DNA of 64,000 nt from Deltaproteobacteria bacterium (lineage in GTDB: Bacteria > JAGRBM01 > JAHCIT01), in assembly GCA_026129095.1 (NCBI GenBank), contig JAHCIT010000005.1, positions 124,001 through 188,000 of the forward strand, given 5' to 3'. The translations under genes were made by a program, and so were the position numbers. This document shows, piece after piece, positions 1 through 33,333 of the stretch (positions are counted from its first letter, which is position 1; every line of letters starts with the position of its first letter). The notes under the pieces are model-generated. The model made no database searches, had not been told where the DNA came from, and worked only from the letters and a program-made list of their open reading frames with translations.

Positions 1-369
1 GGCGACTACCTTTCGGATGCGGCCGCCGCGCAGGTGGGCGGCCTCGGCATTGCGCCGGGAGCGAACATCGGCGACAAGGCGGCGGTATTCGAGGCCACCC
101 ACGGCACCGCTCCCAAATACGCGGGCCAGGACAAGGTGAACCCCGGGTCGGTGATCCTGTCGGGAGTGATGATGTTCGAATACATGGGGTGGGATCGTGC
201 GGCACAGCTCATCACGGCCGCGATGGAGAAGACCATCTCCGAAAAGACCGTCACCTACGACTTCGAGCGCCAGATGCAGGGTGCGAAACTGCTGAAGTGC
301 TCGGAGTTCGGCAAGGCGGTTGCGAAGAACATGGACGCCGTGATTGGCTCCATCAACACTCAGAACTGA
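1..369 (+). CDS. icd: Isocitrate dehydrogenase (NADP-type), C-terminal part, cut by window start
   Basis: The reading frame is open from base 1 and ends with TGA at 367-369, so only the last 122 residues are present. The stretch containing [19 protein letters not shown] and NPGSVILSG is the conserved C-terminal part of prokaryotic NADP-isocitrate dehydrogenase, including the segment that binds the adenine phosphate of NADP. The enzyme converts isocitrate to 2-oxoglutarate in the TCA cycle. It lies 33 bases upstream of mdh on the same strand, and the two TCA genes are probably co-transcribed. Family assignment is firm. Cofactor preference cannot be settled from this fragment. Confidence 0.95.
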
Positions 370-399
370 TCCGGCCTCAAGAACCGGGAAGGCAGGTAA

Positions 400-2294
<1,895 letters not shown>

Positions 2295-2358
2295 GGGTGA
2301 AAGGGCTCCCGGCGGCGCCTGACGCCGGACCGTTCATAGTTCCCCGGAAACCAAAGCG

Positions 2359-5602: not shown

Positions 5603-5689
5603 GCTGTCAGCCGGTTTCCGCGCCCTGCCTGCACTTGAAACGAGTCTATTTCTGGACCCGCCGGGGAGCAATCGCTACAGTGACTTCCG

Positions 5690-7862: not shown

Positions 7863-7946
7863 AAGCGCCGTGAGCGTAGCACACCCGGCGGGCAGTCTAG
7901 AGAGGGATATGCTGTGAAACGGAACCCGGAGCAAGCCATGTTCCCA

Positions 7947-7977
7947 TTGCACTGGGCCGTTGCTTGGGCAATATACT
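7947..7977 (+). promoter_or_regulatory. Candidate promoter of the DUF4388-receiver gene
   Basis: TTGCAC at 7947-7952 and TATACT at 7972-7977 resemble -35 and -10 elements. The spacer of 19 bases is longer than ideal. The predicted transcription start lies within a few bases of the ATG at 7991, and no Shine-Dalgarno sequence precedes that ATG. The transcript would therefore have almost no leader. Confidence 0.4.
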
Positions 7978-7990
7978 GTCCCAAACCCGT

Positions 7991-9091
7991 ATGGCCATTG
8001 TCACCAAGACGTCAGACCCAAACGAACTCCTCGGCATGATCGAGGATGGCTCGATTCTCGAAATCGTGGAACCGGTCTGCCAGACCAAGGCCAAGGTCGA
8101 GGTCGCCATCTGGGATGACGAGCGGGTGGCCAAGTTCTACTTCGACGGCGGCCGGATGGTTCACGCCGTCAGCGGAACCCGCAAGGGCCGCGACGTGGCC
8201 TACAACCTGATCCAGTTCCGCCGGGGCGTATTCAAGTTCCGCCGGGACGTGACGGCACCGGAACAGACGGTCGATATCCCCTATGACGCCTTTTTCGACC
8301 AGTTCCAGATCGGCATGGCCGAACTGTTCAGCCAGATTGCCGTTGCCCTGGATGACCGCCCCGTGGCCGCCGAACTCCGTTCCCACAAGGGAGCCCTGAT
8401 TGCGCGGTGGTCGAACTCCCTCGCCCTGGGGTCAAGGCTCGGCAAGCTTGAGCATTTCTCTCACGAGCAGGTCCGCAAGCTCATCGACGCTATCGGCTCC
8501 GACCGGCCCGACACCTTCCGCCCGCTGGAGGGGGTTCTCGAGTACCTGCGCCGTCTCCAGAGCTTCAAGGCAGTGGTCCGGATCATCTACACAGATGTCG
8601 AGCAGACACCCCGGCTCCGCCAGTGGATCGACGACAACCTGGAAGGGGCCGTCTCCCGCGCCTTCAGCGACGCGCTCCGGAAGGCCGACCGGTTCGTCAC
8701 GGCGCGCAAGCCCCTTATTCTTCATATTGACGACGACTCGAACATCCACATGCTGGTCAAGTTTGCCCTCGCCAACGTGGATGCGGAAATCATCACGGCA
8801 CGCGACGGCCAGGAAGGTTTCCGCCGGGCGCTCAAGGATTCGCCCGACCTCATCATCCTGGACCTCGCCATGCCGGGGATGAACGGCTTCGAGGCGTGCG
8901 AAAAGCTGAAGGAGCACGAGAAAACGAAGGGCACGAAGATACTGGTCCTGAGCGGTTCCGACACGGAGGTAAACCGCGAAATCGTCCTCGGAAACCTCAA
9001 GGCCGATGCATTTCTCGCCAAGCCGTTCGACCGGCGCCAGCTGGTGATGACCGTGCTTTCGCTGGGCCGGTTCGAGATGAAGAAACGCTAG
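7991..9091 (+). CDS. DUF4388 (PATAN-like) protein with C-terminal response-regulator receiver
   Basis: The protein of about 366 residues starts best at ATG 7991 (MAIVTKTSDP). The N-terminal region resembles DUF4388/PATAN domains, with a glycine-rich turn around FYFDGGRMVHAV. The last 120 residues form a receiver domain: acidic DDD near PLILHIDDDSN, phospho-acceptor Asp in LIILDLAMPGMNG, then a serine in LVLSGSDT and the conserved lysine in FLAKPFD. There is no DNA-binding output domain, so phosphorylation probably modulates the N-terminal region or a protein partner. DUF4388 plus receiver fusions are frequent in deltaproteobacterial-type genomes. No partner kinase is adjacent. Confidence 0.85.
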   Translation: MAIVTKTSDPNELLGMIEDGSILEIVEPVCQTKAKVEVAIWDDERVAKFYFDGGRMVHAVSGTRKGRDVAYNLIQFRRGVFKFRRDVTAPEQTVDIPYDAFFDQFQIGMAELFSQIAVALDDRPVAAELRSHKGALIARWSNSLALGSRLGKLEHFSHEQVRKLIDAIGSDRPDTFRPLEGVLEYLRRLQSFKAVVRIIYTDVEQTPRLRQWIDDNLEGAVSRAFSDALRKADRFVTARKPLILHIDDDSNIHMLVKFALANVDAEIITARDGQEGFRRALKDSPDLIILDLAMPGMNGFEACEKLKEHEKTKGTKILVLSGSDTEVNREIVLGNLKADAFLAKPFDRRQLVMTVLSLGRFEMKKR

Positions 9092-9107
9092 CAGGGCTTA
9101 CGGAAAC

Positions 9108-10157
9108 CTACTTCACGCTCCGGGCGATGCGAATCAGCTCCGGGTAAGGGTAGTTCCCGACCAGCGTGAGCTGGGTGTTCCCCTGGATCCACATGACCGA
9201 AGCGAAGCTGCCGTTGAAATTGAGGTACCCGTCCCGGTCGCCGATCCGGACCTTCTTGCCGAGCATCTGTGGCGTGATGTCGCCCGCCGCCCGGTTCTGG
9301 GTCAGTGACAGGTAGCTGGCATCCCTGCCCATGATGAACGAAACCATCGGCAGGCAGTGTTTCGACCGGATGATCTTTTTCTGTTCCACACCCGGCGGGA
9401 GATATTCCGGCAGGCGTATGTCGAAGTTCATGGTCGCCTTCGCCTCTTCCATGGTAATTCCCTCGTCGCGGTGGTCCCACTCGAAGACGACGGCGTTCCG
9501 GGGGAACTCGAAGGTGAAATCACCGGGCTCCAGGGCGACATCAAATCCCGCCTTCTCAAACTCCATGCGGTACCAGAGTTCCCCTTTCGGAGTGGTGATT
9601 TCGACCTTCAGTGGAAGTGAATAACGGTTATACACTGACGAGACATACGGATAGAGGTAGTCCAGTTTTTCCATCGGGACTGCCTTCCATGGGGTCGCCT
9701 CGTAACCGGCAATCTTCAAGGGTTCCCGCATCTGCCAGGCGTAGTTTTTCATGTTGTAGCGGGTGAGAAGTTCCACATGGTCACGGATCTGCGGGACGGG
9801 CGGGTTTTCGAGGCCCCGGACCCGGATACCGAACAGCTCGTTCGGGTACCAGAAGATCATCGTCTCTCCGTCATAGATGAACAGGTCGCCCGCCCGGCTT
9901 CCGGGTTCGAGAACTTCCGACCGGACCTTCCAGGGTTTCTGGTAGACGACCTTCCGGACGACCTTCGCCTTCGGATCCGTCTGGATGAGACCCGTTTCGG
10001 CGATCTGGGCACGGTAGCTTTCCAGTGCCAGCAGATTGTTGACCATCTGGTCGGATATGGCCTGCGCGAACAGGTTGGTGCAGGCGGTCAGGCATAACAC
10101 GACGGCTGGCGGCAGGAGCCGGCGGATGAACCGGTGGCTGATACTGGATGCTTTCAT
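9108..10157 (-). CDS. LolA-like lipoprotein with C-terminal DUF4367-like domain
   Basis: ATG 10157 is preceded by AGGAG at 9-base spacing and starts a signal peptide with lipobox-like LTAC. The N-terminal half (YRAQIAETGLIQTDPKAK, then VYQKPWKVRSEVLEPG and DLFIYDGETMIFWYP) has the strand pattern of LolA/LolB outer-membrane lipoprotein carriers. The last about 110 residues (EYLPPG, LSLTQNRAAG, WIQGNTQLTLVGNYP) match the layout of DUF4367, known from sporulation and anti-sigma-type proteins. It probably acts in the periplasm on a hydrophobic ligand. It lies 50 bases downstream of the hydroxylase gene and is likely co-transcribed with it. Confidence 0.7.
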   Translation of the reverse strand: MKASSISHRFIRRLLPPAVVLCLTACTNLFAQAISDQMVNNLLALESYRAQIAETGLIQTDPKAKVVRKVVYQKPWKVRSEVLEPGSRAGDLFIYDGETMIFWYPNELFGIRVRGLENPPVPQIRDHVELLTRYNMKNYAWQMREPLKIAGYEATPWKAVPMEKLDYLYPYVSSVYNRYSLPLKVEITTPKGELWYRMEFEKAGFDVALEPGDFTFEFPRNAVVFEWDHRDEGITMEEAKATMNFDIRLPEYLPPGVEQKKIIRSKHCLPMVSFIMGRDASYLSLTQNRAAGDITPQMLGKKVRIGDRDGYLNFNGSFASVMWIQGNTQLTLVGNYPYPELIRIARSVK

Positions 10158-10207
10158 ATGCGATCTCTCCTGCCGGGCCGTCATCAGCGGCTACCGGCCT
10201 GTTCAGG

Positions 10208-11029
10208 CTATGCGGATCTGAAGACCCGCCGGAACCAGCTTATCCACTCATCGAATGCGGCATGAACCGGATTGTTGACCGGACGGCCTGCGCCAATCCC
10301 GAAACGGACCGGGTCGGAGGTCTCCCGGGCGAAGCTCCCGAACAGCCGGTCCCAGACGATCAGCACGCCGCCGAAGTTCCGGTTCAGGTAAGGGCTGTTC
10401 TCGCCATGGTGAACCTTGTGGTGCCGGGGGGTGTTGAGGACCCATTCCAGCGGGCCCAGATTCAGCGGAACCTGCGTATGGAGCCATGACTGGTAGAAAA
10501 GGCTCGCTGCCTGCGCGAACAGGACCATCAGGGGGTCGAAGCCGAGGAATACCAGCGGCAGCCAGAAGATCATGGCGGTCATGGGAACCCAGGTCTGGCG
10601 CAAGGCGACGCTCAGGTTGAAGTGCTGCGACGAATGATGGGTAATATGAGAAGCCCAGAGCCACCCCACGTGATGGCTGGTCCGGTGAAACCAGTAGAAA
10701 CAGAAGTCTTCTGCGATGAACAGGAGCAGCCATTCCCACCGGAAGCTGCTGCTCCCGAACGTCCAGCCGGGTGTCCACAACTGGATGACCGGGCGCTCCG
10801 CCGCCCACAGATAGATCCGGAGCAGCACTGGCACCCAAACCAGATTGATCAGGAAGTAGCCCGCATAGAGAGACAGGTTGGCAAAGGTGTCCGCAGGGTC
10901 GTAGAGGCCGGGCCGGCATTTGCGGCTCCAGAGCCACTCCACGAGTATCGCCAGCCCGAAAAGACCAAGCCCCCAGGCGTAGACGTCACGCAGGGGGCTT
11001 GTAAGCAGCGGGGCCAGGATATCTTTCAT
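10208..11029 (-). CDS. Sterol desaturase / fatty-acid hydroxylase family membrane protein
   Basis: A 273-residue protein with four or five membrane segments and the three histidine clusters of the family: HRTSHH, HITHHSSQHFN and HKVHHG. These histidines bind a diiron centre that inserts oxygen or a double bond into lipid chains or sterol-like molecules. The reaction needs O2 and electrons, and the 2Fe-2S ferredoxin encoded at 23.9 kb is only one possible donor. The gene follows the ferritin-like diiron protein gene by 34 bases. Two different diiron proteins side by side suggest a shared oxidative lipid pathway, though the substrate is unknown. Confidence 0.88.
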   Translation of the reverse strand: MKDILAPLLTSPLRDVYAWGLGLFGLAILVEWLWSRKCRPGLYDPADTFANLSLYAGYFLINLVWVPVLLRIYLWAAERPVIQLWTPGWTFGSSSFRWEWLLLFIAEDFCFYWFHRTSHHVGWLWASHITHHSSQHFNLSVALRQTWVPMTAMIFWLPLVFLGFDPLMVLFAQAASLFYQSWLHTQVPLNLGPLEWVLNTPRHHKVHHGENSPYLNRNFGGVLIVWDRLFGSFARETSDPVRFGIGAGRPVNNPVHAAFDEWISWFRRVFRSA

Positions 11030-11063
11030 GGGCGGCCATCCGGCCGGTTCCAGATGGAGGTTT

Positions 11064-12059
11064 TCAGGCCGTCGCTTCCCAGTCCTCGAACTTGAGGATG
11101 TCGAGCTCCCGGAACCGCTCGCGCAGCTTGGGCGTCAGCAGGCCCACGCGCTTCAGGTTCGGTACGATCTTGGAAAAAAGGATTTTCCTGAACTCCTTCA
11201 TGGCCGGGGAGTTGAGCATGTGCTCCAGGCACTCCTCCTTGGGATATCCCAGCGTCTCCCAGACCTCCTGCATCAGGAACCGGTCGCGCATCAGGATACA
11301 GGCCTCGTAGATCCAGTCCTCGCGGTCGCGCAGCTCGCTCGCCGCCATGTCGTCGTAGTAGCCCTTCAGCGACAGGACTCCGAAGGCCACATGGCGGGAT
11401 TCGTCCTTCATCACGTAGTGGGTGAGATCCTTCACCAGCGGTTCGCGGGTGAAGTTGTACGTCATCTGGAAGGCGGCGAGCGCCAGCCCCTCGACGAGTA
11501 TCTGCATCCCCACGTACTTGAAGTCCCACCGGGACTCGGTGAGGATCGAATCGAGCAGTTTCTTCAGGTGCGGCGAGATGGGGTAGGTGAGTTCGTACTT
11601 CTCGTTCAGGTATCTGGCGAACACCTCCACATGCCGGGCCTCGTCCATCACCTGCGTCGAGGCGTAGAACTTGGCGTCAATGCTGGGCACGGCCGTAACG
11701 AGCTGGGAAGCCGTCAGCAGCGCGCCCTGCTCCCCGTGCAAAAACTGCGAAAGCGACCATGAACCCGAGTGGTGGCGGAGCTTGCGGATCTCCTTTTCCG
11801 ACAGCCTGCGCCAGATGTCGGTATTGTAGAGCGCATGCATGGCGTCGGGATTGTTCTCGGACTCGGGATCGACGCTGGTGTCCCACTTGAGCGTCTCGCC
11901 CGACTCCCACTGGTCGCGCTTGGCCTTTTCATAAAGTTCGCGCAGCTCACGCACCTGGACCTCGTAGTTCCAGTTGTAAAGGGTGTCGTACTTGCTGAGA
12001 ACCCGCTCGATCTCCTCGTGAAGCGGCAGTTCCTGGGCAGCGGTTTCCGGAGGCGTCAT
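11064..12059 (-). CDS. Ferritin-like diiron protein (RNR R2/AurF-like fold)
   Basis: A 331-residue, mainly helical protein with two E...ExxH modules: Glu in HGEQGAL with DEARHVEVF, and Glu in VEGLALAAF with KDESRHVAFG. This is the ligand arrangement of ferritin-like carboxylate-bridged diiron enzymes such as ribonucleotide reductase R2-like oxidases and AurF-type N-oxygenases. No radical-site tyrosine can be assigned by eye, so I would not call it a ribonucleotide reductase. It is the first gene of a minus-strand trio with the sterol-desaturase-type hydroxylase and the LolA-like protein. The substrate is unknown. Confidence 0.78.
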   Translation of the reverse strand: MTPPETAAQELPLHEEIERVLSKYDTLYNWNYEVQVRELRELYEKAKRDQWESGETLKWDTSVDPESENNPDAMHALYNTDIWRRLSEKEIRKLRHHSGSWSLSQFLHGEQGALLTASQLVTAVPSIDAKFYASTQVMDEARHVEVFARYLNEKYELTYPISPHLKKLLDSILTESRWDFKYVGMQILVEGLALAAFQMTYNFTREPLVKDLTHYVMKDESRHVAFGVLSLKGYYDDMAASELRDREDWIYEACILMRDRFLMQEVWETLGYPKEECLEHMLNSPAMKEFRKILFSKIVPNLKRVGLLTPKLRERFRELDILKFEDWEATA

Positions 12060-12153
12060 GACAAAACTCCCGTTCTGGCAACGGAGCGGCTTGGAGGGCC
12101 GTTCGGTCTGTAAGTCCTGACATTGTGACCGGATGACCCGGACGGGACAAATG

Positions 12154-12182
12154 AAAACCGGCCACCCTGAAGTGGCCGGTTT
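12154..12182 (-). terminator. Rho-independent terminator of the cytochrome bc operon
   Basis: An 11-bp perfect stem (12155-12165 with 12172-12182) encloses a 6-base loop. On the minus strand it is followed by TTTTCATTT. It sits about 30 bases after the stop codon of the octaheme cytochrome gene, the last gene of the operon. Confidence 0.85.
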
Positions 12183-12211
12183 CCGGGCTTTGGACGGGAT
12201 TTTACGAAGCC

Positions 12212-15200
12212 CTAGAACCCGAACCCGTCGTCTCCGCCTTCATCGCCGCCTGCCTCACCGGACGGACCGTAGGAGGGTTCCTGGCCGGGAATACCCGTAA
12301 CCGGCTGATAGGCAGCTGGCGGAAGCTGCCCGGCGCGGGCGGCGGCCAGGTTCGCATTGAATGTCGAACCGACGGCGCCCTTGACCTGGGCCTCGCGCCC
12401 GTAGACCAGCAGCCAGTCGGAAACACCCTTTATTTCCTTCCAGTTCTGGATGATCTGCTCGGCTTCATCCGGGCTGGCCCTGGCCGGGTCATAGATGGTG
12501 AGTCCGTCCTCAGTCTGGGGGAACGACCAGAACGAGGGCATCACGATACCCGGGTACATGTGCATCGGGTTCCGGGCGAACCGCTGGACCCAGTCGGGCT
12601 TGAGTTTCTCCCAGGCGATCCGGAGGTCGGGAGCGAGCTGTCCCACCTGCCCCTTCACGATCTTGGGATTGACCTGGTGGCAGCTCGTGCAGGCGTTCCG
12701 CTCGAACACCTGCTTGCCGAGCGCCACGCTCGCCGGATCGAGCGGGCCCACTTCGGTTGGCGTCAGGTTGGCCAGATCGCCTGCAACACCGCTGAAATAG
12801 TTGACCACCTTGAAGTGCTCGCCCTCCTGCCAGCCGAACGTCGGCATCCGGATCTCCAGCCACGGGCGGACTTCAAACGGATTCAGCAGGAACCTGGTCA
12901 GCCAGTCCGCCTGGACCTTGGCGCCGAGGAAGGTGAGGTCCGGCGGGCCGAGCCGCTGGTTATCCTCATAGTACCCCAGCACACGGCCGCCACGGCGGTC
13001 CACGATATGACAGGCCTTGCAGTTGTAATACTCGACCAGCCGCTGGCCCTCGTCGATCGCCTGCTGCCGGGCCGTGCCGCCGGCCTGCCACTGACCGGTG
13101 ACCCGGATATTGGTGAAACCCTTGACCAGCACCATCAGGCGGTGGGCCTGATCGTCCGTAAATCCGTGCTCGCCAGTCTCCGGGTTGTAGCCGAACTGCG
13201 GCATCTTCTGGAGGTTCCGCTCGTCACGGTAACCACGGGGGTTCTGGACCTTCCCGAGGAACCAGGATTCCCAAGTCCGCTCGACCTGGGTCGCCGGTCC
13301 GAACGCCAGCTCGTGCGCGCCCTTGAGCGCAAACTCGGTCAGTTCCGGCGCGACCTTCTGCTCGTTCTCGAAACCCTTGATCGTGTGGCAGCCGAAGCAG
13401 CCGTAATTCCGGACGATCCACTCGCCCTTGGCGATCATCTCCTCGTTCGACAGCGCCTCGGCAAGGCCGTCCACTGCCGGGAACTCCATCTCGCGCTTGC
13501 CCATCAGGAACGTGGTGAGATCCCGGGCCTCGTCGTCGGAAAGCCGCAGCGACGGCATGGCCGTTTCGTGCGAATAGCCTGACGGGTTCTTGAGCCAGTG
13601 ATAGAGCCACTTGGCGTTGACCTTGCTCCCGACCGTGTAGAGGTTCGGCGCGCTGTCAAACTCCTTGTAGAAGGGGCTGTCCCGATCGTAGTACCCGGCC
13701 GGGCGCGCATTGGCGAAGTCGGAGGTCGCCACATGGCAGGCCTTGCAGCCAATGGAATCAAACAGCTTCTCGCCCTTGCCCGCACTGCCAGCCGTGAACC
13801 ATGACTCTGCGCGATTGTCGCTGTTTTTGGCCGGGTAGGCATCGTCAGCCTGGCTCCAGATGAACGCCACCAGCGACTTGATCTCGTACTCGCGCTGTTC
13901 CTCGTAATCAGGCGATGCGGGATCGGCGCCGTAATCCTGGAAGTAGGGCATCCGCGTCTTGGGCAGGATCTTGTGGGGATCCTTGATCCAGGCATACAGC
14001 CATTCGGGCGTCGTCTTGGCCTGAATACGGGTCAGGCTCGGCCCCGGCTTGTGGCCCAGTTCATCAAGAACCTCGAACCCCTTCGCCTGGTGGCAACCCC
14101 AGCAGCCCAGCTTCTCGAACGACTCGCGTCCGTTGTTCAGCTCCTGGGCGTAATCAATGTATTTCTGGTACGGAATGCCGGTCCATGGATCGGGCGCACG
14201 GCTGGCGACCTGGAGCTCGGTCTTGTGGCACTTGACACACGACGACTGGACCATCGTCGGGTCATAGTGGGAATCGTAGTGGTACCCGTCAGGCAGCCGC
14301 TTGCGGCCAAGCAGCGGCCAGTCCCAGTAGTGAATCGTGCCATGAGCCTCGTCCACCGGCTCCAGAGCATAACCCTGTCCCTGGTGGCAGGAGGTGCAGC
14401 CGAACTGCTCGGGCGGATGATCACCGAAGATCGCTTCCATGTGCGGGTGCGACCGGAAGAGTTTCTTCTCTTCCTTCTCCCAGCCCAGCTTGTCAATGGC
14501 GTAGTGGCAGGTCGAGCACCGGTCCACGGCATACTGCTGCTCGTTAAACTCGTTGAGCCGCGTCCCGCGGATTACGTACTGGACGACGTCGTCATCGCCG
14601 AAGAACCACCAGAAGACCCCCTTCGAACGGCGGTGAATGCGGTCGTAACGCGACTGGACCTCGCCGATCCGGTCGCTCACGCGAACATGCATCTGCTGCC
14701 ACTTGTCCACATCAGACATGATTTCGGCACGCTCGGCAGCGAGCTTTTCAAGCTCGGCGCGGATGCCCCGCAGGATGCCGCCCGTCCGCTCAATCGCAGC
14801 GGCGATCTCGTCCAGACGCTTGCGGGCATGCTCAAGGCCCTTGGCGTCACCCAGATCAAGAGCGTGCGTGAAGTGGTACCACCATTCCAGATCCTCGGAC
14901 TTGGCGTTCTGGAACTCGATATTGGCCAGATACTCCCGGCGCTGGGTCGCCGTAATGCTGCTTTCGATCTTCGAGAGACGGCTGCGATCGACCTTGGCCC
15001 ATGCGGCGGCCAGTTCCTTCTCGATTTCGGCGAGCGGCGGGAACTGCCTGGCCTTTTCGATCTCTTCCTCGGGCCAGCTTTCGGGGAACTCGCCGTGGAT
15101 CAGGGCCTTGCGGGTTTCTTCCAGTTCCCTGGCCGCGCGGTCCAGTTCGAGCGTCTTGAACTCGCGCTGGTAGACCTTCCAGTCCCGGCGCAGGACGAAC

Positions 15201-15295
15201 TCGTCCAGCAGCGACCACGATGCGATCAGCAGCATCAGCACCGACAACGCGAAGAACGGTACTTTCAGCGACTCTTGTTCAACCGGCTTTGCCAC
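12212..15295 (-). CDS. Octaheme c-type cytochrome of a cytochrome bc-type complex
   Basis: A 1027-residue protein anchored by one N-terminal membrane helix (residues about 14-33), then a charged, probably coiled-coil region to about residue 230. Eight CxxCH haem sites follow: CSTCH, CTSCH and CVKCH close together (about residues 260-355), then CWGCH, CKACH, CFGCH, CKACH and CTSCH spaced about 110-125 residues apart. Each of the last five is followed by a Met-Pro ligand motif (TRMPYF, TAMPSL, QKMPQF, IRMPTF, IVMPSF), so they look like five tandem class-I cytochrome c modules. It lies 60 bases after the cytochrome b C-terminal subunit gene and probably takes the electron-accepting role of cytochrome c1. 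Confidence 0.93.
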   Translation of the reverse strand: MAKPVEQESLKVPFFALSVLMLLIASWSLLDEFVLRRDWKVYQREFKTLELDRAARELEETRKALIHGEFPESWPEEEIEKARQFPPLAEIEKELAAAWAKVDRSRLSKIESSITATQRREYLANIEFQNAKSEDLEWWYHFTHALDLGDAKGLEHARKRLDEIAAAIERTGGILRGIRAELEKLAAERAEIMSDVDKWQQMHVRVSDRIGEVQSRYDRIHRRSKGVFWWFFGDDDVVQYVIRGTRLNEFNEQQYAVDRCSTCHYAIDKLGWEKEEKKLFRSHPHMEAIFGDHPPEQFGCTSCHQGQGYALEPVDEAHGTIHYWDWPLLGRKRLPDGYHYDSHYDPTMVQSSCVKCHKTELQVASRAPDPWTGIPYQKYIDYAQELNNGRESFEKLGCWGCHQAKGFEVLDELGHKPGPSLTRIQAKTTPEWLYAWIKDPHKILPKTRMPYFQDYGADPASPDYEEQREYEIKSLVAFIWSQADDAYPAKNSDNRAESWFTAGSAGKGEKLFDSIGCKACHVATSDFANARPAGYYDRDSPFYKEFDSAPNLYTVGSKVNAKWLYHWLKNPSGYSHETAMPSLRLSDDEARDLTTFLMGKREMEFPAVDGLAEALSNEEMIAKGEWIVRNYGCFGCHTIKGFENEQKVAPELTEFALKGAHELAFGPATQVERTWESWFLGKVQNPRGYRDERNLQKMPQFGYNPETGEHGFTDDQAHRLMVLVKGFTNIRVTGQWQAGGTARQQAIDEGQRLVEYYNCKACHIVDRRGGRVLGYYEDNQRLGPPDLTFLGAKVQADWLTRFLLNPFEVRPWLEIRMPTFGWQEGEHFKVVNYFSGVAGDLANLTPTEVGPLDPASVALGKQVFERNACTSCHQVNPKIVKGQVGQLAPDLRIAWEKLKPDWVQRFARNPMHMYPGIVMPSFWSFPQTEDGLTIYDPARASPDEAEQIIQNWKEIKGVSDWLLVYGREAQVKGAVGSTFNANLAAARAGQLPPAAYQPVTGIPGQEPSYGPSGEAGGDEGGDDGFGF

Positions 15296-15355
15296 AGGCG
15301 TTTTGCTCCCCGTTCCGAAATCAGTCTCTCAACGGCGTCCTGCCACGTCTCCGGC

Positions 15356-16321
15356 TCAGACGTTGAACCAGGGTGTCACCCAGATGTATTTCACATGCAG
15401 CGTCCACCGCATCACCATCTTGAGCGGCAGCAGCATCATCGTCAGGAAGAAGAAGGCGGTTACGCCGTACCTCGCGACCCCCATCTTCTGCAGCGTGGGC
15501 GACTTGTCCTTGTAAAGCTGCCAGTACGCCACACCGGTCGCATAGAAGGCCGCGAGGAACAGGGCGCCAACGAGATCAACCCCCATTACCTTGATGTGAG
15601 GCGAGATACTCTTGATGAATCCGAGATCCACCAGGTTCACGTTCGTCAGTGCCACGACCTTGTGCGAATCCCACGGCTCCCATGGCAGGAAGAAGTTCCA
15701 GCCGGGGCCCCGGAGGAACACGCCGATGATGATGAGCGCGATCCACAGCACCACGTATCCGAACAGGAAGGTGTTGATGGCGAACTTCCGTTCCTCGTAA
15801 CAGTAGTAACCGTTACCCTTCGGGTTCACATCGACGTACGGAAGCACCATCAGCCCGGCGATGATGAAACCGGGGAAGATCACGCCCGCAAGCCACGGAT
15901 CGAAGTAGACGAGCATCTCCTGCAGGCCGAGGAAATACCAGGGCGCTTTCGACGGATTCGGCGTCTTGCTGGGGTTGGCAGGCTCTTCCAGCGGCGCATC
16001 CACCACCAGCGACCACAGCATCAGGATGACCAGCGTTGCCAGCGTCGCGATGAACTCCGCCCGGACCAGATAGGGCCACACATAGATGCGGTCCTTGGCC
16101 ATCTGGCGCGACAGTTCCTCGTCATCAACCACATACACGTTCTGTGCGGGGGGCGTCTGCGACTCCACCGGGCGAAGGGTGCCGGGCTCGGCGGCCAGCG
16201 GAGTCACGGGCCGTGCGGCGATCGCCGCACGGGCGCGCATGGCGCGGGCACGGGCGGCGGCCTTGGCCGCTTCCAGGTCCATCTCGGCCCCTTTGGGCTT
16301 GCTGTCTTTTTCGTCTGCCAT
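15356..16321 (-). CDS. Cytochrome b C-terminal subunit (subunit IV-like)
   Basis: A 321-residue membrane protein. An alanine/arginine-rich N-terminus precedes a membrane part with about six helices. NPSKAPWYFLGLQEML near residue 125 corresponds to the PEWY-containing Qo-site loop of cytochrome b, with the glutamate position replaced (APWY). The quinol-oxidation glutamate is therefore not at the canonical place. The variant APWYFLGLQE also occurs in split b-type complexes of other bacteria as far as I recall. It lies between the haem-binding cytochrome b gene and the octaheme cytochrome gene, and is larger than chloroplast subunit IV. Confidence 0.9.
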   Translation of the reverse strand: MADEKDSKPKGAEMDLEAAKAAARARAMRARAAIAARPVTPLAAEPGTLRPVESQTPPAQNVYVVDDEELSRQMAKDRIYVWPYLVRAEFIATLATLVILMLWSLVVDAPLEEPANPSKTPNPSKAPWYFLGLQEMLVYFDPWLAGVIFPGFIIAGLMVLPYVDVNPKGNGYYCYEERKFAINTFLFGYVVLWIALIIIGVFLRGPGWNFFLPWEPWDSHKVVALTNVNLVDLGFIKSISPHIKVMGVDLVGALFLAAFYATGVAYWQLYKDKSPTLQKMGVARYGVTAFFFLTMMLLPLKMVMRWTLHVKYIWVTPWFNV

Positions 16322-27208: not shown

Positions 27209-27284
27209 TGGAGGCGGCTATCGGATTCGAACCGATGGATGACGGTTTTGCAAACCGTTCCCTTAACCACTTGGGTAAGCCGCC
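27209..27284 (-). tRNA. tRNA-Cys (anticodon GCA)
   Basis: The minus strand gives acceptor GGCGGCT with AGCCGCC, discriminator T, and an encoded CCA (27209-27211). The anticodon arm is ACGGT-TTGCAAA-ACCGT and the T arm is ATCGG-TTCGAAT-CCGAT. Discriminator U73 and anticodon GCA are the identity marks of tRNA-Cys. It lies 65 bases before the restriction-modification cassette's left repeat. Confidence 0.96.
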
Positions 27285-27348: not shown

Positions 27349-27411
27349 TTCAGGGCGCCGCGAGCTCGGCCGTGGCGGTTTCCTCCAGCGTGTCGAGATC
27401 GAAAGCCGATA
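27349..27411. repeat. Left copy of the 63-bp direct repeat flanking the R-M cassette
   Basis: Bases 27349-27411 match 29484-29546 at 59 of 63 positions. Read on the minus strand, the copy encodes the last about 20 residues (SAFDLDTLEETATAEL then AAP) and stop codon of the beta-propeller lipoprotein encoded at 29485-31647, but here nothing of that gene lies upstream. It is an isolated gene-end fragment beside tRNA-Cys. Confidence 0.95.
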
Positions 27412-27433
27412 AGAGTTCGGGCAAGGCGGCAAT

Positions 27434-27459
27434 ACTTATAGTCTCTGTATTCCTATACT
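27434..27459 (+). promoter_or_regulatory. Controller-box-like operator and -10 element before the C gene
   Basis: ACTTATAGTC at 27434-27443 matches the core of known controller-protein boxes (GACTTATAGTC). A weaker copy TCCTATACT follows at 27451-27459 and includes TATACT, a good -10 hexamer. The centres are 17 bases apart. The start codon of the controller gene is 21 bases further on. Confidence 0.65.
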
Positions 27460-27480
27460 GCTTCTTCCTACAGTTTCTGC

Positions 27481-27702
27481 GTGCCTGCTCCGCAACAGGT
27501 TCTTGGTAAACGGATCCGCCATCTTCGCGAGCAGCGGGGTTGGACGCAGGAAGACCTTGGCCGCAAGGCCCGAAAACACCCCACTTATATTGGCGGGATT
27601 GAGCGTGGTGAACGGAATGCAACCGTTCAGGTTCTTGCGGATATTTCCAAGGCGCTCGGAATCAGCATCGCTGATCTGTTTACAGGGGATTCAGGCCAGT
27701 GA
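27481..27702 (+). CDS. Restriction-modification controller protein (XRE-type HTH)
   Basis: A 73-residue single-domain helix-turn-helix protein. IRHLREQRGWTQEDLGRKA and YIGGIERGERNATVQVLADIS give the five-helix XRE fold, and the size and position match C proteins of type II R-M systems. Such proteins activate the endonuclease gene after a delay and regulate themselves through C boxes. The GTG start has no Shine-Dalgarno sequence. Its stop overlaps the endonuclease start (GTGA), so the two are translated together. The box-like site at 27434 supports autoregulation. Confidence 0.88.
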   Translation: MPAPQQVLGKRIRHLREQRGWTQEDLGRKARKHPTYIGGIERGERNATVQVLADISKALGISIADLFTGDSGQ

Positions 27703-28253
27703 GTCCTCCACATCCGATCGAAAGATTTTTCAATGCGAGTGCCGACGATATCATGTCGGCAATCGAGCACGGTTTTCGTGCACAAGTAGACGTTAAGGGA
27801 AAGCTTGCGGAACTGTTTCTGCACCGACAGCTGTGTGCTCTTGAAACTGGCGGCACAATTTCCAGACTCCAATGGCTCGATAGAGACAATCAGCCGGATT
27901 TTATATTTACCGCTCGCCAACATACGTTCCGTGTCGAGTGTAAGAATGTCCGAGCTGGCAGGGATCAAAGATATAGACAAAGCCCGCATCAGGAATGGTT
28001 CAAAGTCGAACTTCAGAAGACACGTTCCGGAACCGACAGGCAGGGGAACCGGACCCGAGGATACAGAACAGACCGGTTTGATATCCTTGCGGCGTGCCTG
28101 TTCAATCAGACCGGCCAGTGGAACTTCCTCTATGCTCACATACGTGATCTTGCCCACCGAAGAGACCTGCCAAGTATCTTGGAAATTATGCATCCGGTAC
28201 CTCCCGTTTCACAGGGAATATGGAAGGCCGATATCGAAGAGTTCCTCCGATAG
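27699..28253 (+). CDS. Putative type II restriction endonuclease (PD-(D/E)xK)
   Basis: A 184-residue protein with a PD-(D/E)xK-type active site: P66-D67 in QPDFIF, then E80-C-K82 in FRVECKN, 13 residues apart on adjacent strands. It sits between the controller and methyltransferase genes, overlapping the former by four bases, which is the standard place for the endonuclease. I do not recognise the specificity group. It would cut unmethylated DNA at a site protected by the downstream methyltransferase. The sequence is AT-richer than the chromosomal flanks. Confidence 0.82.
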   Translation: MSPPHPIERFFNASADDIMSAIEHGFRAQVDVKGKLAELFLHRQLCALETGGTISRLQWLDRDNQPDFIFTARQHTFRVECKNVRAGRDQRYRQSPHQEWFKVELQKTRSGTDRQGNRTRGYRTDRFDILAACLFNQTGQWNFLYAHIRDLAHRRDLPSILEIMHPVPPVSQGIWKADIEEFLR

Positions 28254-28276
28254 GAGCCATTTCTCTGAGACACCTC

Positions 28277-28289
28277 GTGACCTATACTC
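28277..28289 (+). promoter_or_regulatory. C-box-like promoter of the methyltransferase gene
   Basis: GTGACCTATACTC matches the known controller-box half-site GTGACTTATAGTC at 11 of 13 positions and contains TATACT (28283-28288) as a -10 hexamer. It ends 6 bases before the GTG start of the methyltransferase, so the transcript would be leaderless. A controller protein bound here would cover the -10. Confidence 0.6.
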
Positions 28290-28295
28290 TGCTCC

Positions 28296-29345
28296 GTGAA
28301 CAAATCGCCGCTGGATCATATTGAAGTCAATTACGCTACTGAACTGGGGCGTGCCTACTGTGGCAATGCGGAGCAGTTGCTTCGGTTGTTGCCCAAGGAG
28401 TCCGTAAACCTCGTATTTACATCTCCTCCGTATGCACTAGAGTTCAAAAAGGAATACGGTAACGTTGCAAAATCCGAATATGTTAGCTGGTTTCTAAAAT
28501 TTGCTCGCCACATCCACACGGCACTTGCCAATGACGGCAGTTTTGTCCTGAATATCGGTGGCAGTTACCAAGCGGGTTCTCCAACCCGTTCCCTATACCA
28601 TTTCAAGCTGCTTTTGGCTCTCTGCGAGGAGGTCGGTTTTCATCTCGCTCAGGAACTATTCTGGTATAACCCAGCAAAGTTACCAGCCCCTGCCGAGTGG
28701 GTGAACGTAAGACGAATCCGGGTCAAAGATTCAGTTGAATACTTGTGGTGGTTTTCCAAGGGATCTTTTCCCAAGGCTAATAACAAAAACGTCCTGAAGC
28801 CTTATTCGCCGGATATGGAACGTCTCATGGAGAGAGGATACAAGGCCAAGCTTCGGCCGTCCGGACATAACATCACAAACAAGTTCGACACGCGTCACGA
28901 AGGCTCTATCCCGTCTAACCTGCTGGAGCATGGGAACAACGACAGTAATGGGTTTTACCTGAAAGCCTGCCGCGAAGCCGGACTCAAGGTTCATCCGGCA
29001 AGATTTCCTCCTGCATTACCCAACTTTTTTATTAAACTGTTAACGAATCCTAGTGATCTGGTTCTGGATCCGTTTGCGGGCAGTAATACTACGGGTGCTG
29101 TAGCGGAAAAACTTGGCCGACGGTGGATCGCGTTCGAGCTGAATGAGGAATATCTGAAGGGCAGCCGTTTCAGGTTCGAACCCAATAAAACCGGGCAGCC
29201 GCCTAGGGAAGCTAGCCCGAAAAATTCAGCAGCCAGCAATAAATCCCAACTTTCATTTATGATTCGCGAAGAACCTCCCCCCTTGGCCAAATCTCCCAAA
29301 ACACCAGCAAAAAGAATGGCGAAACATCATCGAACCGTGCGCTAA
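28296..29345 (+). CDS. DNA methyltransferase of the R-M system (beta class, N4-cytosine type likely)
   Basis: A 349-residue methyltransferase. Motif IV is TSPPY at residues 42-46 and motif I is [10 protein letters not shown] beginning at residue 258, so the order IV then I defines the beta class. TSPPY is typical of N4-cytosine enzymes, with N6-adenine as the alternative. The region between them holds the target-recognition domain. It methylates the site cut by the upstream endonuclease. It begins at GTG 28296, 42 bases after the endonuclease stop, and appears to have its own promoter. The last about 50 residues are a basic low-complexity tail. Confidence 0.93.
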
Positions 29346-29483
29346 AGCCTGCCGCCGGACGAGTATGCGATCAGAATGTACAAGAACTATAGCGAATGGG
29401 GAGCAGCGATCTCGCTCCCCGCTCCTGCTGATCAGATTCCATACGGTTCGTCTGTAGTCGGGTTCATCCACCCGCAGCTGTAT

Positions 29484-29546
29484 TTCAGGGCGCCGTGAGT
29501 TCCGCCGTGGCGGTTTCCTCCAGCGTGTCGAGATCGAACGCCGATA
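29484..29546. repeat. Right copy of the 63-bp direct repeat (end of the propeller gene)
   Basis: Bases 29484-29546 match 27349-27411 at 59 of 63 positions. Here the repeat is the genuine 3' end of the beta-propeller lipoprotein gene, so the gene is intact despite the neighbouring cassette. Three of the four differences do not change the encoded residue; the fourth exchanges Thr for Ala. Confidence 0.95.
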
Positions 29547-31647
29547 CCCGCACCGTGCCGATCAGGTAGACATGGTCGCCGACAAACACCGACCGGCGGA
29601 CCCGGTTCGGCATGCAGTAAAAGAGGGGGTCCTCGCACTCGCCCGCCTCGGCATCCTGGGCGAGGCTGCCCGCGTGCGAGAGGGTACCGCCATCAACCTC
29701 GACAAGCTCCAGTGTCGTCGAATACTCGTAGTCGTCAGAATCGAAACGGTACCGCTCCATCGGGATGGCCAGCAGCGAATGGGGCGGCCAGTACTGGAAC
29801 GCCTTGTGCTCCCAGGTGGCCTCACTCCATCCGCCGCCCAGGAGCGCGCCGAGGTCCAGCGTGTCCGACTGGACCGGCGCGGCAAAGTCGCTGACATCGA
29901 ACAATGCCACCTGCGTGGACCAGTCGAAGGTTTCCGTATCGACGGCGAAGCCGACCGTGAGCAGCCGGTCCCCCGCCAGCGGATGGATGTAAGTGGAAAC
30001 ACCCGGCACCTCGACATGCCCGGCGACTGACGGCGCAGCCGGATCTGCCAGATCGATCGCCCAGAGCGGATCGATGTTCCGGAACGTCACCAGGAACGCC
30101 TTGTCCTCCAGAAACCGCGCCGCCCAGATGCTTTCACCCCTGGCGATGCCGCCCAGATGCCCGGTCACTTCGAGCGAATCCCCGCCTTCCATCACATAGA
30201 CATGATTGACCGGCTCCACGCGCCGGACTCCCCACCACCAGGGGAAGCCGCCGCTCGTCACGGCAATCCGCACACGGTTCTCCCGCTCCGAGAGCGCAAA
30301 CGGGCCGTACAGGGTCCCCTCCACGCGGCCGCTTCCGGTATAGGCGGTATTAGCCCCGTCCAGATGGAAACGGTGCAGGTTGGTATGGCCGGGCAGTATC
30401 TCCTGATCCCAGAACCACCACGAGGCGAACGCCTCGTCGGCGACCAGCAGCGTGTCCCCGCTGGAATAGACATGACTCGCGCCCGTGGCGACCTGCAGGA
30501 CCGGCGATTCCGCGAGATCGCCCGACAGGTCCAGCGTCCGGATCGTGGTGAAGCTGCGGGACCAGGAGTCCTCCGGGAGCGCGAAGTTCTGGCAGTTCTC
30601 CCCAGAAAGGCTCTCCAGATCGTACCCGCCGTCACCATCGCTCACGGCCGACTGCGGCGCGAAATCGGCCAGGCCCATGCGTGCAATGATCCGGTCGTTC
30701 TTCCCGATCGCCTCGATGACCGCGCTGCGGATAGCCGCCCATCTCTGGAGATCGCTGCCGCCGCCTTCCCAGAACCAGTCCGGAAGCTCCGGCCAGTAGT
30801 TGAGGGCGTCGGCCGCCTTGCCCCCGAAGGTGACCACCCGCACCACTCCATCCGTGAGCCGCGCCGCCCGGTAGTCGCCCTCCGTGTAGATTTCGTGCAG
30901 CACCGCCGGACCCGTCCGGTCGGTAACATCCAGAACGGCGATCTTGATGATGCTGTTCCACCAGTAGCCGGGCCCCGCGATGTCGATGGCCGGTTCCGCG
31001 CCGGGCGACCCAGGCGAACTGCCCCAGTCGCCAAGGCCAATGCCACCGGGCTGGGACCGGAGCGGATGGCCTTCAGGGAGATCCCACGGACTTACCGCCG
31101 AAACCACCACCGCCGTGTTCCCGTCCAGCAGGAGTTCCAGCGGCCAGCCCTCGACTGCCGTACGCGAACGGACGGCAAGGTCCCCCGGCTCCGGGATCTC
31201 CAGGATCACGATGTCCGTGGGGCCAAGGACATAGAGGTAGGTCCCGTCGGTCTTGACGATATCGCCCTCGTCAGCCGCCGCCTCCTGGTTGTTGGTACCC
31301 GAATAGGCCGGTCCGTCACTGCGGCCCGCGCCGCCGAGCGCCATGTCCACTTCCGCTCCGCCCAGTACCGGCACCGGAATGCCACCGCTCATGCTGCCAC
31401 GAAGGGCCTGCTCGGCCTGGAGTAGCATCACACGCATCTCCTGGCTGAGTCCGCGGCGAAGCCGCTCCTCCAGTTCGCTGCACGATGCCGGGACCGTGAG
31501 CGCCGCACTCGTCATCACGCGAGGCTCCAGATCGACCGGCTCCAGGGCAAACCCGCCGCCTGACGAACAGGCGGCCAGCGCGCACATGATTGCAAAAAGA
31601 ACGGGGAGCGGCGCTCCCGCTCCCCGTTTCTTCTGGCCGTGCATCAT
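29485..31647 (-). CDS. Beta-propeller lipoprotein (secreted propeller family, COG4880-like)
   Basis: ATG 31647, preceded by GGAG, starts a signal peptide with lipobox ALAAC; the longer frame upstream runs into the preceding gene. The 720-residue protein carries the family segment NNQEAAADEGDIVKTDGTYLYVL, followed by repeated four-strand blade sequences such as LYGPFALSERENRVRIAV, and a long acidic and tryptophan-rich body. It is predicted to be anchored in an outer or inner membrane leaflet facing the periplasm. Function is unknown. It is the last gene of a three-gene operon, and its 3' end carries the right copy of the R-M repeat. Confidence 0.85.
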   Translation of the reverse strand: MMHGQKKRGAGAPLPVLFAIMCALAACSSGGGFALEPVDLEPRVMTSAALTVPASCSELEERLRRGLSQEMRVMLLQAEQALRGSMSGGIPVPVLGGAEVDMALGGAGRSDGPAYSGTNNQEAAADEGDIVKTDGTYLYVLGPTDIVILEIPEPGDLAVRSRTAVEGWPLELLLDGNTAVVVSAVSPWDLPEGHPLRSQPGGIGLGDWGSSPGSPGAEPAIDIAGPGYWWNSIIKIAVLDVTDRTGPAVLHEIYTEGDYRAARLTDGVVRVVTFGGKAADALNYWPELPDWFWEGGGSDLQRWAAIRSAVIEAIGKNDRIIARMGLADFAPQSAVSDGDGGYDLESLSGENCQNFALPEDSWSRSFTTIRTLDLSGDLAESPVLQVATGASHVYSSGDTLLVADEAFASWWFWDQEILPGHTNLHRFHLDGANTAYTGSGRVEGTLYGPFALSERENRVRIAVTSGGFPWWWGVRRVEPVNHVYVMEGGDSLEVTGHLGGIARGESIWAARFLEDKAFLVTFRNIDPLWAIDLADPAAPSVAGHVEVPGVSTYIHPLAGDRLLTVGFAVDTETFDWSTQVALFDVSDFAAPVQSDTLDLGALLGGGWSEATWEHKAFQYWPPHSLLAIPMERYRFDSDDYEYSTTLELVEVDGGTLSHAGSLAQDAEAGECEDPLFYCMPNRVRRSVFVGDHVYLIGTVRVSAFDLDTLEETATAELTAP

Positions 31648-31651
31648 CAGT

Positions 31652-32470
31652 TCACTCCGCAACCGCTCCGGAAGCTTCGATTGCCGTGGCCAGCACGCTC
31701 TCGATATCCGAGCAGTCGCCCGTACCATTGGCGATCGTGAGCACATCACCCGACAGTTCCAGGTCCTCGCTGGCGACGCAGGCGGTGAGCGGCAGACCGG
31801 CAAACCAGTCCGTCACTTCCATGGCCAGCCTGAAATCGCCCGTGTGCGGCAGCGACACCGGCCCCGGCAGGACTACCGGCAGCGGATCGCTGATCCCAAG
31901 GGAGAAGAAAGTCCCGTCACCGGGATCGCCGAAGGAGCCGCTCGCCACGAGGGATTTCCCGTTGAGGGGCGAACCGGCATCGATCAGGCCGTCAGCCGGA
32001 TCGCCCGGCTCCAGTTCAAACAGGACGCTGCCGAAAACGGTGAGCGGCAGCGGGACATCGGCCAGTGACGGCGTGATGCGGCCGGAACGCAGGTTGACCC
32101 GGAAGGGCCCGTTGATGCTCACCAGGCCGGCATCGCAGGTAACCAGCGGAGCGACCATGATCTCGCTGAACCGTCCGCACGTGACATCGGACGGGAGCTC
32201 CAGCACGATCCGCTTCAGGTAGGCCGCCGAGGCGTCGAACCGGAACGGCGCGCCGTCACTGTCCCGTGCGACCGGCACCCCGCCGTCTGTCTCATCCGAA
32301 ACCAGCCGGAACGTCACGCGGGTATAGAGCCCATAGACGCCGCCGCCATCGATGACCGGATCGAAACCGACCGGCTCTATCCCGTTGCCGGTCCAGGTGC
32401 CATCGCAGGAGAGCGCCACCGCCAGCAGCGGCAGGGCGAGCAGGTGAAACAGGGAGCGGTTCAATCTCAC
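31652..32470 (-). CDS. Lipoprotein of unknown function
   Basis: A 272-residue protein with signal peptide and lipobox VALSC, beginning MRLNRSLFHLLALPLLA. The mature part is glycine-, valine- and aspartate-rich with predicted beta strands and four to six cysteines (for example DVTCGRF, LVTCDAG, LTACVAS, GDCSDI), suggesting disulfide bonds in the periplasm. I do not recognise a domain. Its start overlaps the end of the TIGR02147 regulator gene by four bases and its stop lies 4 bases before the propeller gene start, so the three are translated as one unit. Confidence 0.75.
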   Translation of the reverse strand: MRLNRSLFHLLALPLLAVALSCDGTWTGNGIEPVGFDPVIDGGGVYGLYTRVTFRLVSDETDGGVPVARDSDGAPFRFDASAAYLKRIVLELPSDVTCGRFSEIMVAPLVTCDAGLVSINGPFRVNLRSGRITPSLADVPLPLTVFGSVLFELEPGDPADGLIDAGSPLNGKSLVASGSFGDPGDGTFFSLGISDPLPVVLPGPVSLPHTGDFRLAMEVTDWFAGLPLTACVASEDLELSGDVLTIANGTGDCSDIESVLATAIEASGAVAE

Positions 32471-33333
32471 GGCTTTTTTCCTCCTGTCACGGCGAAAAGC
32501 TGCATACCGAGCACATAGACCTCTCGGGGCTCGTCTCCGCGCGGGGCGTCTTCGATCCGGTTCAGCAGGTTCTTGCCGAACTCCTCGATTTCACGGCAGA
32601 TAAGTTCGTACTGTTCCCGCGTCAACGCGATCGTCACCGAAGTCACGTTACGTTCTTCCCGCGGCAGGTTATCCATGCTGCTGGCCGCCAGGGTGAGCAT
32701 CTCCCGGTGGTAGTTACGGGCCGCCAGGAGCTCGACCGGGGATTCGGCCGACAGTTTGGGCGAATCGAGTTCGAGTTTCCCGTCGCCGTTGCGCCTGACG
32801 AGCCCCAGATCCTCCAGGCGCGTGAGCGCCTTCTGTGCTTCGCTCCTGGTGACCGGGGGTTTCAGCCTTTTGGCGATCCACTCGGGGTCTTCACGGAAGT
32901 CAGGCAGCAGGAACATCTCGCGCACGGGGATATTGTGCCAGGCCGAATACACCTCGTACTGGCTGCGCTTCATCTTCGCCGCGCTGGTCACCGGGTGCGG
33001 GGACCGGCGAAGCTGCTGGTAATACCGGTTCCGTTCATCGTCGGTCCCGGCCTGGCTGAACATGACGAGCGCCTCGAAGGCGTCGCGCTCCCGGGCATCC
33101 AGTCCCAGTGCCTTGGAGAAGCGGCCAATCGAGTCGGCCGTGAGGTTCCGCTTGCCGTCGATCACCAGCTTCAGGAAGCTGGAGGTGTTGAACCCGGCCT
33201 TGCGGGCAAACTGGCGGTGCGAGAAGCCCGGCCCGCTCTCCTTGAGGAACTGGATCATGTCCCTCAGGTAGTCCCGGTAGTCATCGTAGGCGGCCGGACT
33301 GGGGCGCTCGGGCGTTGTTCTCTCGTCAGCCAT
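32467..33333 (-). CDS. TIGR02147-family regulatory protein with N-terminal HTH
   Basis: A 288-residue protein. The N-terminal part (YRDYLRDMIQFLKESG, then FSHRQFARKAGFNTSSFLKLVIDGKRNLT) is the HTH of the TIGR02147 family, followed by a helical region with EAQKALTRLEDLGLVRR. In Fibrobacter and Bdellovibrio-type genomes these proteins often sit directly upstream of secreted or lipoprotein genes. Here the gene overlaps the next lipoprotein gene by four bases. It likely controls its own operon, possibly through the inverted repeat at 33375-33390. Confidence 0.85.
   Translation of the reverse strand: MADERTTPERPSPAAYDDYRDYLRDMIQFLKESGPGFSHRQFARKAGFNTSSFLKLVIDGKRNLTADSIGRFSKALGLDARERDAFEALVMFSQAGTDDERNRYYQQLRRSPHPVTSAAKMKRSQYEVYSAWHNIPVREMFLLPDFREDPEWIAKRLKPPVTRSEAQKALTRLEDLGLVRRNGDGKLELDSPKLSAESPVELLAARNYHREMLTLAASSMDNLPREERNVTSVTIALTREQYELICREIEEFGKNLLNRIEDAPRGDEPREVYVLGMQLFAVTGGKKP

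Follow-up and report, generated by a model that had tools for sequence, protein, structure and literature searches.

A complete type II restriction-modification (R-M) unit, with controller, restriction endonuclease and methyltransferase genes in the order C-R-M, lies at the intact 3' end of a beta-propeller lipoprotein-like gene in a 64,000-nucleotide stretch of a Deltaproteobacteria genome (assembly GCA_026129095.1, contig JAHCIT010000005.1, forward-strand positions 124,001 to 188,000; the whole stretch is called the window below and its first letter is position 1), where it is enclosed between two copies of the end of that gene. It is very probably a foreign unit that was inserted behind the propeller gene, with the flanking repeat belonging to the same event. 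The manner in which the repeat arose is a further question, and here we give about an even chance to homology-anchored capture, in which a donor gene end and the cassette recombined together into the resident propeller gene. This mechanism is ranked, tentatively, above both plain target duplication and site-specific integration. A preliminary description of the window had read the arrangement as a foreign C-R-M insertion at an unbroken gene end, with the repeat as a plain duplication of the target; the insertion and the tie between the repeat and the event are retained in what follows, and the plain duplication is not.

The repeat search returned the position and identity already described for the repeat, namely two direct copies of 63 nt (Table 1) which agree at 59 of 63 positions and are spaced by 2135. 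The stop codon of the minus-strand propeller gene (29485-29487) lies inside the right copy, so that the repeat is the 3' end of this gene including its stop codon, and the gene itself is an open frame of 772 codons that the cassette leaves unbroken, both as previously claimed. When translated in the propeller frame, the distal copy still reads SAFDLDTLEETATAELAAP followed by a stop. The pair could in principle be a chance repeat, an assembly join, or a case of paralogous gene ends with no relation to the insertion, and the division of the assembly into 23 contigs, as well as four repeat pairs at lipoprotein-like paralogs encountered on C4 in the genome scan described below, would be consistent with such an origin. 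This explanation is nevertheless very improbable. In ungapped 63-nt matching at window spacings of 200-5999 the pair scores 59, against a top score of 41 at any other spacing; self-BLAST of the window (direct repeats of at least 25 bp and 80%, at most 12 kb apart) assigns it an E of 2.8e-20, against 0.007 for the runner-up pair; and the segment is present in two copies in the whole genome (E 1e-26 and 2e-21, with the next match at E 0.1). An assembly join is further opposed by the two junctions themselves, which carry the same gene end with 4 differences, for which a join through an identical word has no natural source.

The foreign character of the cassette is apparent from its composition. 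It had been described as AT-richer than its flanks, and the GC and codon figures agree: its GC content lies below that of the window (Table 1), and the GC content at third codon positions (GC3) is 0.51 for its three genes, against 0.79-0.85 in five measured neighbouring genes. Family matches and a model of the endonuclease fold also uphold the description of its 2072 bases as a complete controller-endonuclease-methyltransferase unit. The cassette is a complete type II R-M unit, with a C-box, a controller, a PD-(D/E)XK endonuclease and a PvuII-type methyltransferase, as judged from these matches and from the model, and cleavage is predicted. This assignment is made because a C protein, a middle gene of nuclease fold and a PvuII-like methyltransferase occur together, and because the pairing is recurrent: in a scan of genome contigs 45 loci with a relative of the endonuclease were found, of which 39 also encode a PvuII-like methyltransferase nearby. 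A scan of viral contigs with the methyltransferase found no relative.

The endonuclease gene, which shares its first 4 nt with the end of the C gene, encodes a protein without a match to any Pfam, NCBIfam or PADLOC family at E 0.001 or, by phmmer, to any PDB chain at E 1. The profile of its family has weak matches in the PDB (E 0.66-0.89), of which the homing endonuclease I-Ssp6803I is the first (0.66) and which include GabR chains. A structure model built from 24 sequences (predicted local distance difference test score, pLDDT, 93.3) has the same homing endonuclease as its top solved match (2ost; Foldseek E 3.5e-5; Z 12.8, root-mean-square deviation 3.5 over 133 residues). Holliday-junction resolvases, SPARDA nuclease chains and restriction enzymes come next with lower Z values, and we take all of these to have the PD-(D/E)XK fold in common with I-Ssp6803I. 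Residues E38, D67 and K82 are invariant across the 24 sequences. The closest solved structure to the methyltransferase is M.PvuII (PDB 1boo; E 3e-103 over 287 residues), and the PvuII R-M system likewise has a controller gene and a C-box-like operator; the likeness of the two systems lies in the methyltransferase family, whereas the endonuclease differs in the respects just given. The word AATACTTATAGTCTCT, presumably a C-box on the pattern known for C proteins and hence a predicted operator, precedes the controller gene also in the two other loci that have the gene order C-R-M, unchanged in L143 and with one change in L139. A relative of the endonuclease, 47.5% identical and annotated as hypothetical, is encoded near a PvuII-like methyltransferase on plasmid pH6Ac of Methanothrix harundinacea (NC_016637.1), which differs from the window in being a plasmid, in its divergent gene order and in a 64-codon open reading frame (ORF) between the genes.

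CAGCTG, the PvuII site and a candidate recognition sequence, is under-represented (0.44; rank 6 among 64 palindromes), as are several other palindromes, which does not prove that it is recognised. It occurs at 29475-29480, 3 bp from the proximal repeat copy, where its presence is probably due to chance, and a second time at 27828 within the endonuclease gene. The genome of 3.67 Mb contains ten PF01555 methyltransferase matches above the cut-off, that of the window included; one of the ten adjoins a terminase-like gene, and several may be part of further R-M systems.

The window is not the only place in this genome where inserted DNA is bracketed by two copies of the end of a neighbouring gene, an arrangement referred to here as a scar. 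A scan of 2,567,667 of the 3,668,516 bases (70%) for direct repeats of at least 28 bp and 80%, with 500-12,000 bp between the copies, yielded 33 pairs, and a mechanical filter placed 13 of them at an ORF end, either 3' or 5'. Five of these were kept and eight were dropped by eye, the kept pairs being those in which one copy forms the 3' terminus of a gene that is intact, the gene body lies outside the bracket, and there is no sign of paralogy, dispersal or a terminator. Within the 2.57 Mb scanned, every one of the five gene ends occurs exactly twice, and the five are mutually dissimilar. In addition to the window cassette they enclose a toxin-antitoxin (TA) pair, an Rhs toxin fragment, an MpaB-type oxygenase gene and a DnaB-like gene. 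Two of them entered the set after the idea existed: the pair around the oxygenase gene was in the first list and was recognised as a gene end later, and the pair around the DnaB-like gene surfaced at a lower threshold. A reading of the scar as specific to R-M genes is not borne out by this set, and no R-M-specific process is needed, because the oxygenase and DnaB-like inserts carry the same scar. The same two inserts contradict addiction as the sole reason for the scars, an idea that the first three, all with toxin-antidote modules, had offered and that was dropped.

Of the eight rejected pairs, one has a hairpin and a T run like those of a terminator (C1 133775), two lie in repetitive genes (C2 283098, C4 247994), four are at lipoprotein-like paralogs (C4 26, 840, 3237 and 4138), and one (C5 36485) belongs to a dispersed repeat. 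The repeat at C1 252410 is also terminator-like in appearance. The dispersed repeat, of about 260 bp, has five copies within 40 kb (C5 36485, 40592, 57265, 67413 and 75051), two of which bracket a 10-kb stretch whose genes resemble a molybdoenzyme cluster by eye.

The position of the stop codon in the repeats and the kind of substitution that separates the copies both bear on the origin of the scars. The repeat extends beyond the stop codon by 1, 11, 56, 16 and 0 nt in scars 1 to 5, and by 0 nt in the related cassette L143, so that the stop codon stands near the outer edge more often than a uniform position would allow (P 0.0003 for the six cases, 0.002 for the five of this genome and 0.012 for the three that were found first). 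The coding differences between the copies, summed over the five pairs, are 13 synonymous to 6 not (3:1, 0:2, 1:0, 1:0 and 8:3 for scars 1 to 5). Random decay, for which about a quarter would be expected to be synonymous, gives this ratio with P 7e-5, and decay of one copy with the other under selection, for which the expectation is about 0.4, gives it with P 0.012. The edge position and the synonymous bias together are what is expected if two orthologous gene ends were joined, as homology-anchored capture yields. These patterns in the repeats suggest that an orthologous gene end came with the insert through recombination anchored in the gene, and that it was not produced by plain duplication of the target.

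The steps of such a capture can be set out as follows. The incoming DNA would carry the end of an orthologous propeller gene beside the cassette, and this donor gene end would recombine by homology with the resident propeller gene. The other junction would be made without homology, or else the incoming DNA would first close into a circle and then enter by a single crossover. The product would be a full-length gene next to the cassette, and a spare gene end would be left at the opposite side, by tRNA-Cys. The donor gene end, the homology anchor and the route of transfer are thus putative elements of this account. A related process is known as homology-facilitated illegitimate recombination (HFIR), and both HFIR and single-crossover capture resemble what is proposed here in that one junction is made by homology and, in a study in E. 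coli, gene-end duplication is the commonest product (PMC3240628). In the conjugation test described there, 56 of 60 recombinants gave the polymerase chain reaction product diagnostic of a homologous gene-end duplication, and the duplications in 14 sequenced clones were 109-950 bp long and were explained by a single crossover of a circle (PMC3240628). The E. coli duplications were classed as single crossovers in that work, whereas here the event is inferred from sequence. HFIR has also been proposed for toxin-immunity arrays and modules (PMC5361080).

Several observations weigh against capture. Without the DnaB-like pair the synonymous ratio falls to 5:3 (P 0.027 for random decay, 0.17 with one copy selected), the window pair alone gives 3:1 (P 0.062), and the TA pair is reversed, at 0:2. 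Both statistics are post hoc, with n of 5 or 6. The 75-nt core of the L143 repeat is identical in its two copies and is hence silent on a diverged donor, and only the first base of the stop codon lies inside it. A conserved coding anchor fails to account for the repeat of another related cassette, L176, which is a gene leader. In the E. coli study true HFIR made up the minority of events, and HFIR proper was expected to give deletions (PMC3240628). Finally, no donor and no empty site has been seen for the cassette. The propeller protein, when sought in the 2 genomes of the phylum, matched in its own genome alone, and when sought in 60 genomes it matched in 6, its own included, with the other five at 28-37% identity; neither search supplied an empty site. 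The cyclase gene that adjoins L143 is present in 24 of the 27 genomes of its family, its own included, and the nearest relatives are 58-60% identical; the DegP-like left neighbour of L143, when sought in the 1.5-kb flanks of 20 cyclase loci, one of them that of L143 itself, gave two short weak matches, none convincing. The relatives of L143 are therefore too distant for an empty site to be visible. The flavin reductase gene at L176 is found in 63 of 95 genomes, its own included, with the others at most 45% identical, and again without an empty site.

The principal alternative is that the cassette entered a staggered or gapped break, that the 63 bp were copied on both sides as a long target duplication, and that the copies then drifted. 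Insertion of R-M units with long target duplication is, by the account of citing papers, reportedly due to Nobusato et al. 2000 and Furuta et al. 2010. The preliminary description was right to point to this literature, in which R-M insertion with long and variable target duplications, of the order of 100 bp, has been established by genome comparison (PMC3874152, PMC3031569, PMC1643837). As in those systems, a compact R-M unit lies here between long direct repeats of resident DNA, which flank it tightly and are unique to the locus, and the window cassette is a further example of the published R-M insertion with long duplication. It differs on two counts: its repeat consists of a gene 3' end whose stop codon stands at the repeat edge, and inserts other than R-M are bracketed alike in the same genome. 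The literature searched, in which the founding reports are known through the papers that cite them, offered no instance of a gene-3'-end form that recurs around unlike cargo within one genome and bears the marks of an imported end.

Related R-M cassettes in other genomes were examined for the same arrangement by comparing left with right flanks (up to 700 bp) for cassettes with a methyltransferase and at least 300 bp on each side, a condition that admitted 32 loci, the window included, and left out 14 of 46. Four loci (the window, L143, L155 and L176) score 54-108, and the next scores are 17.6 and 17.4. As a control, left and right flanks of different loci were paired 600 times; one combination reached 37 (it was drawn twice, and matches the left flank of the window, which holds tRNA-Cys, with the right flank of L162) and all others were at most 16.2. 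In L143, from a Phycisphaerales metagenome-assembled genome (MAG), a C-R-M cassette is convergent with a CHASE2/cyclase gene whose final nucleotides stand on both sides of it, as in the window. The edge of the identical core falls within the stop codon, and the copies read TGA and TAG. No other full-length copy of this repeat was found in its genome among 40 of 45 candidates scored, and there was one weak 49-nt match (E 4e-4). In L176, from a Planctomycetia MAG, the repeat (80 nt, 91%) is the leader of the flavin-reductase gene and ends just past the start codon, with no further full-length copy in its genome. Locus-unique long repeats are thus present in 2 of the 31 other cassettes, and in one of these the repeat is a gene 3' end.

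An extension of the distal copy of L143 as a diverged homologue (70% over 52 residues) was weak outside the identical core and was not used. L155 was rejected as a further R-M example, since its 130-bp flanking repeat is dispersed over at least 34 places in its genome (40 of 52 candidates scored). The two copies at that locus (5553-5682 and 7383-7512) lie around the R-M cassette and have inverted ends, which in the second copy are GGTTCTTCGAACC and GGTTCGAAGAACC; the repeat is perhaps a carrier resembling a miniature inverted-repeat transposable element. The 45 loci, with 412,209 bases, hold seven repeat pairs, of which three bracket the R-M genes tightly and one (L173, 43 bp) loosely. Two repeats that do not bracket R-M genes were not counted, one of 80 bp in L141 with inverted ends and shorter further copies in the locus, and one of 93 bp in L145 which starts at a stop codon and whose second copy ends at the contig end.

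Plain target duplication has arguments of some weight on its side: duplications of about 100 bp have been published for R-M systems (PMC3874152, PMC1643837), L143 and L176 carry locus-unique repeats in other phyla, and the gene leader at L176 fits it better than it fits an anchor in the gene. A copied break, however, would put the stop codon anywhere in the repeat, and it is found near the outer edge; the spare copy should decay as non-coding DNA, and a small post hoc count over five pairs shows a synonymous bias instead; and the same scar surrounds inserts that are not R-M. As stated in the preliminary description, plain target duplication is therefore not supported, and we regard it as rather unlikely. 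No inverted repeats were seen by eye in the 30-nt ends of the cassette.

A third explanation is site-specific integration at the gene 3' end, with the repeats as attL and attR and the integrase either acting in trans or lost. Att sites restore gene ends, and the synonymous bias fits this explanation too, since it would likewise bring orthologous ends together. The genome also contains an element of about 4.8 kb (L034, C5:100001-120000, at 8174-13059) that carries a gene for a tyrosine integrase and another that by eye is DnaB-like, and which is bracketed by a 71-bp, 89% repeat overlapping tRNA-Lys, similar to the scars in length and divergence. Set against this, the five gene ends share no sequence, the inserts hold cargo alone by eye, and a tblastn search confined to the tyrosine integrase of this genome, a weak test, found no relative of it in the window or in any of the 45 loci. 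A search of the repeats for an inverted-repeat core found none above shuffled sequence, and was powerless, since the tRNA-Lys positive control failed too. On balance, site-specific integration appears distinctly unlikely, and homology-anchored capture is preferred to it.

Table 1. Features of the window around the cassette, and the five gene-end scars of the genome.
Feature	Position	Strand	Description
tRNA-Cys (gca)	27209..27284	-	ARAGORN; outer neighbour of the distal repeat copy
Distal copy of propeller gene end, 63 bp	27349..27411	-	Matches the gene's own end at 59 of 63 positions
Inserted cassette, 2,072 bp, three plus-strand genes	27412..29483	+	GC 0.506, window 0.639
C-box-like operator (predicted), AATACTTATAGTCTCT	27431..27446	+	Precedes the controller gene
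Controller (C) protein, 73 aa, HTH_3	27481..27702	+	PF01381, E 1e-16; PADLOC Control_protein, E 2.5e-15
Endonuclease, 184 aa	27699..28253	+	PD-(D/E)XK fold by model
DNA methyltransferase, 349 aa, M.PvuII-like	28296..29345	+	PF01555, E 3e-46; PADLOC MTase_II PDLC03323, E 9e-118
Gene-proximal repeat copy	29484..29546	-	Stop codon with the 59 nt that precede it and 1 nt past it
Beta-propeller lipoprotein-like gene, intact	29485..31803	-	PF09826, E 4e-103; convergent with the cassette
Scar 1	window 27349-27411 / 29484-29546		Propeller gene end around the C-R-M cassette
Scar 2	C4 188896/189748		81 bp, 95%; end of a gene with a sub-cut-off JAB-like Pfam match; brackets a Gp49/RelE-type toxin and an HTH antitoxin
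Scar 3	C4 54026/55617		214 bp, 98%; B12-binding radical-SAM gene end; brackets an Rhs fragment with an AHH nuclease domain; GC 0.554
Scar 4	C2 248695/249673		44 bp, 95%; MFS gene end; brackets an MPAB_Lcp_cat (MpaB-type) oxygenase gene; host-like GC
Scar 5	C1 225005/226068		66 bp, 83%; DUF2779 gene end; brackets a DnaB_C (DnaB-like) gene

Some further observations concern the surroundings of these features. A type III R-M system (mod, res) is located beside scar 2 (L020, C4:176500-193000, at 7631-12402), with the res stop codon overlapping the first bases of the distal copy, and the 3' end of the JAB-like gene seems to have collected two modules, the TA pair and the type III system. In the insert of scar 3 (L045, C4:40001-60000, at 14026-15830) the Rhs pieces are permuted by eye, the tip and toxin coming first and a core-repeat piece last; the second ORF in this bracket may be the immunity gene of the toxin fragment. 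The window (31652-33333) contains one of two copies of a gene pair, judged by eye, the other being at C1 253463-255216; in this pair a small lipoprotein-like gene comes after a DUF4423-type regulator, for which the window copy has a Pfam match. An identical 36-bp repeat pair at C9 (about 119357-121100), beside ORFs that are cas1/cas2-like by eye, is perhaps a CRISPR array.

The movement of small R-M and TA modules without a transposase is an old question. Five like scars in one genome, together with two in R-M relatives of other phyla, would make it possible to distinguish target duplication from capture by the comparison of strains, with synonymous differences and the presence of the stop codon at the repeat edge as simple read-outs. 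We tentatively suggest, as a possibility that is still doubtful, that this genome has a general route of gene acquisition, in which resident genes catch incoming DNA at their 3' ends through an orthologous gene end that travels with it and leaves a locus-unique scar; the published long target duplications of R-M systems would then be a special case of homology-anchored capture and not a transposition-like act of the R-M genes. If this is true, R-M, TA and Rhs modules would be frequent among the scars, because a cell that loses them through recombination between the repeats can be killed, and ordinary genes would be caught as well. The scar would in addition serve as a cheap marker by which recent gene captures could be found where a genome lacks close relatives.

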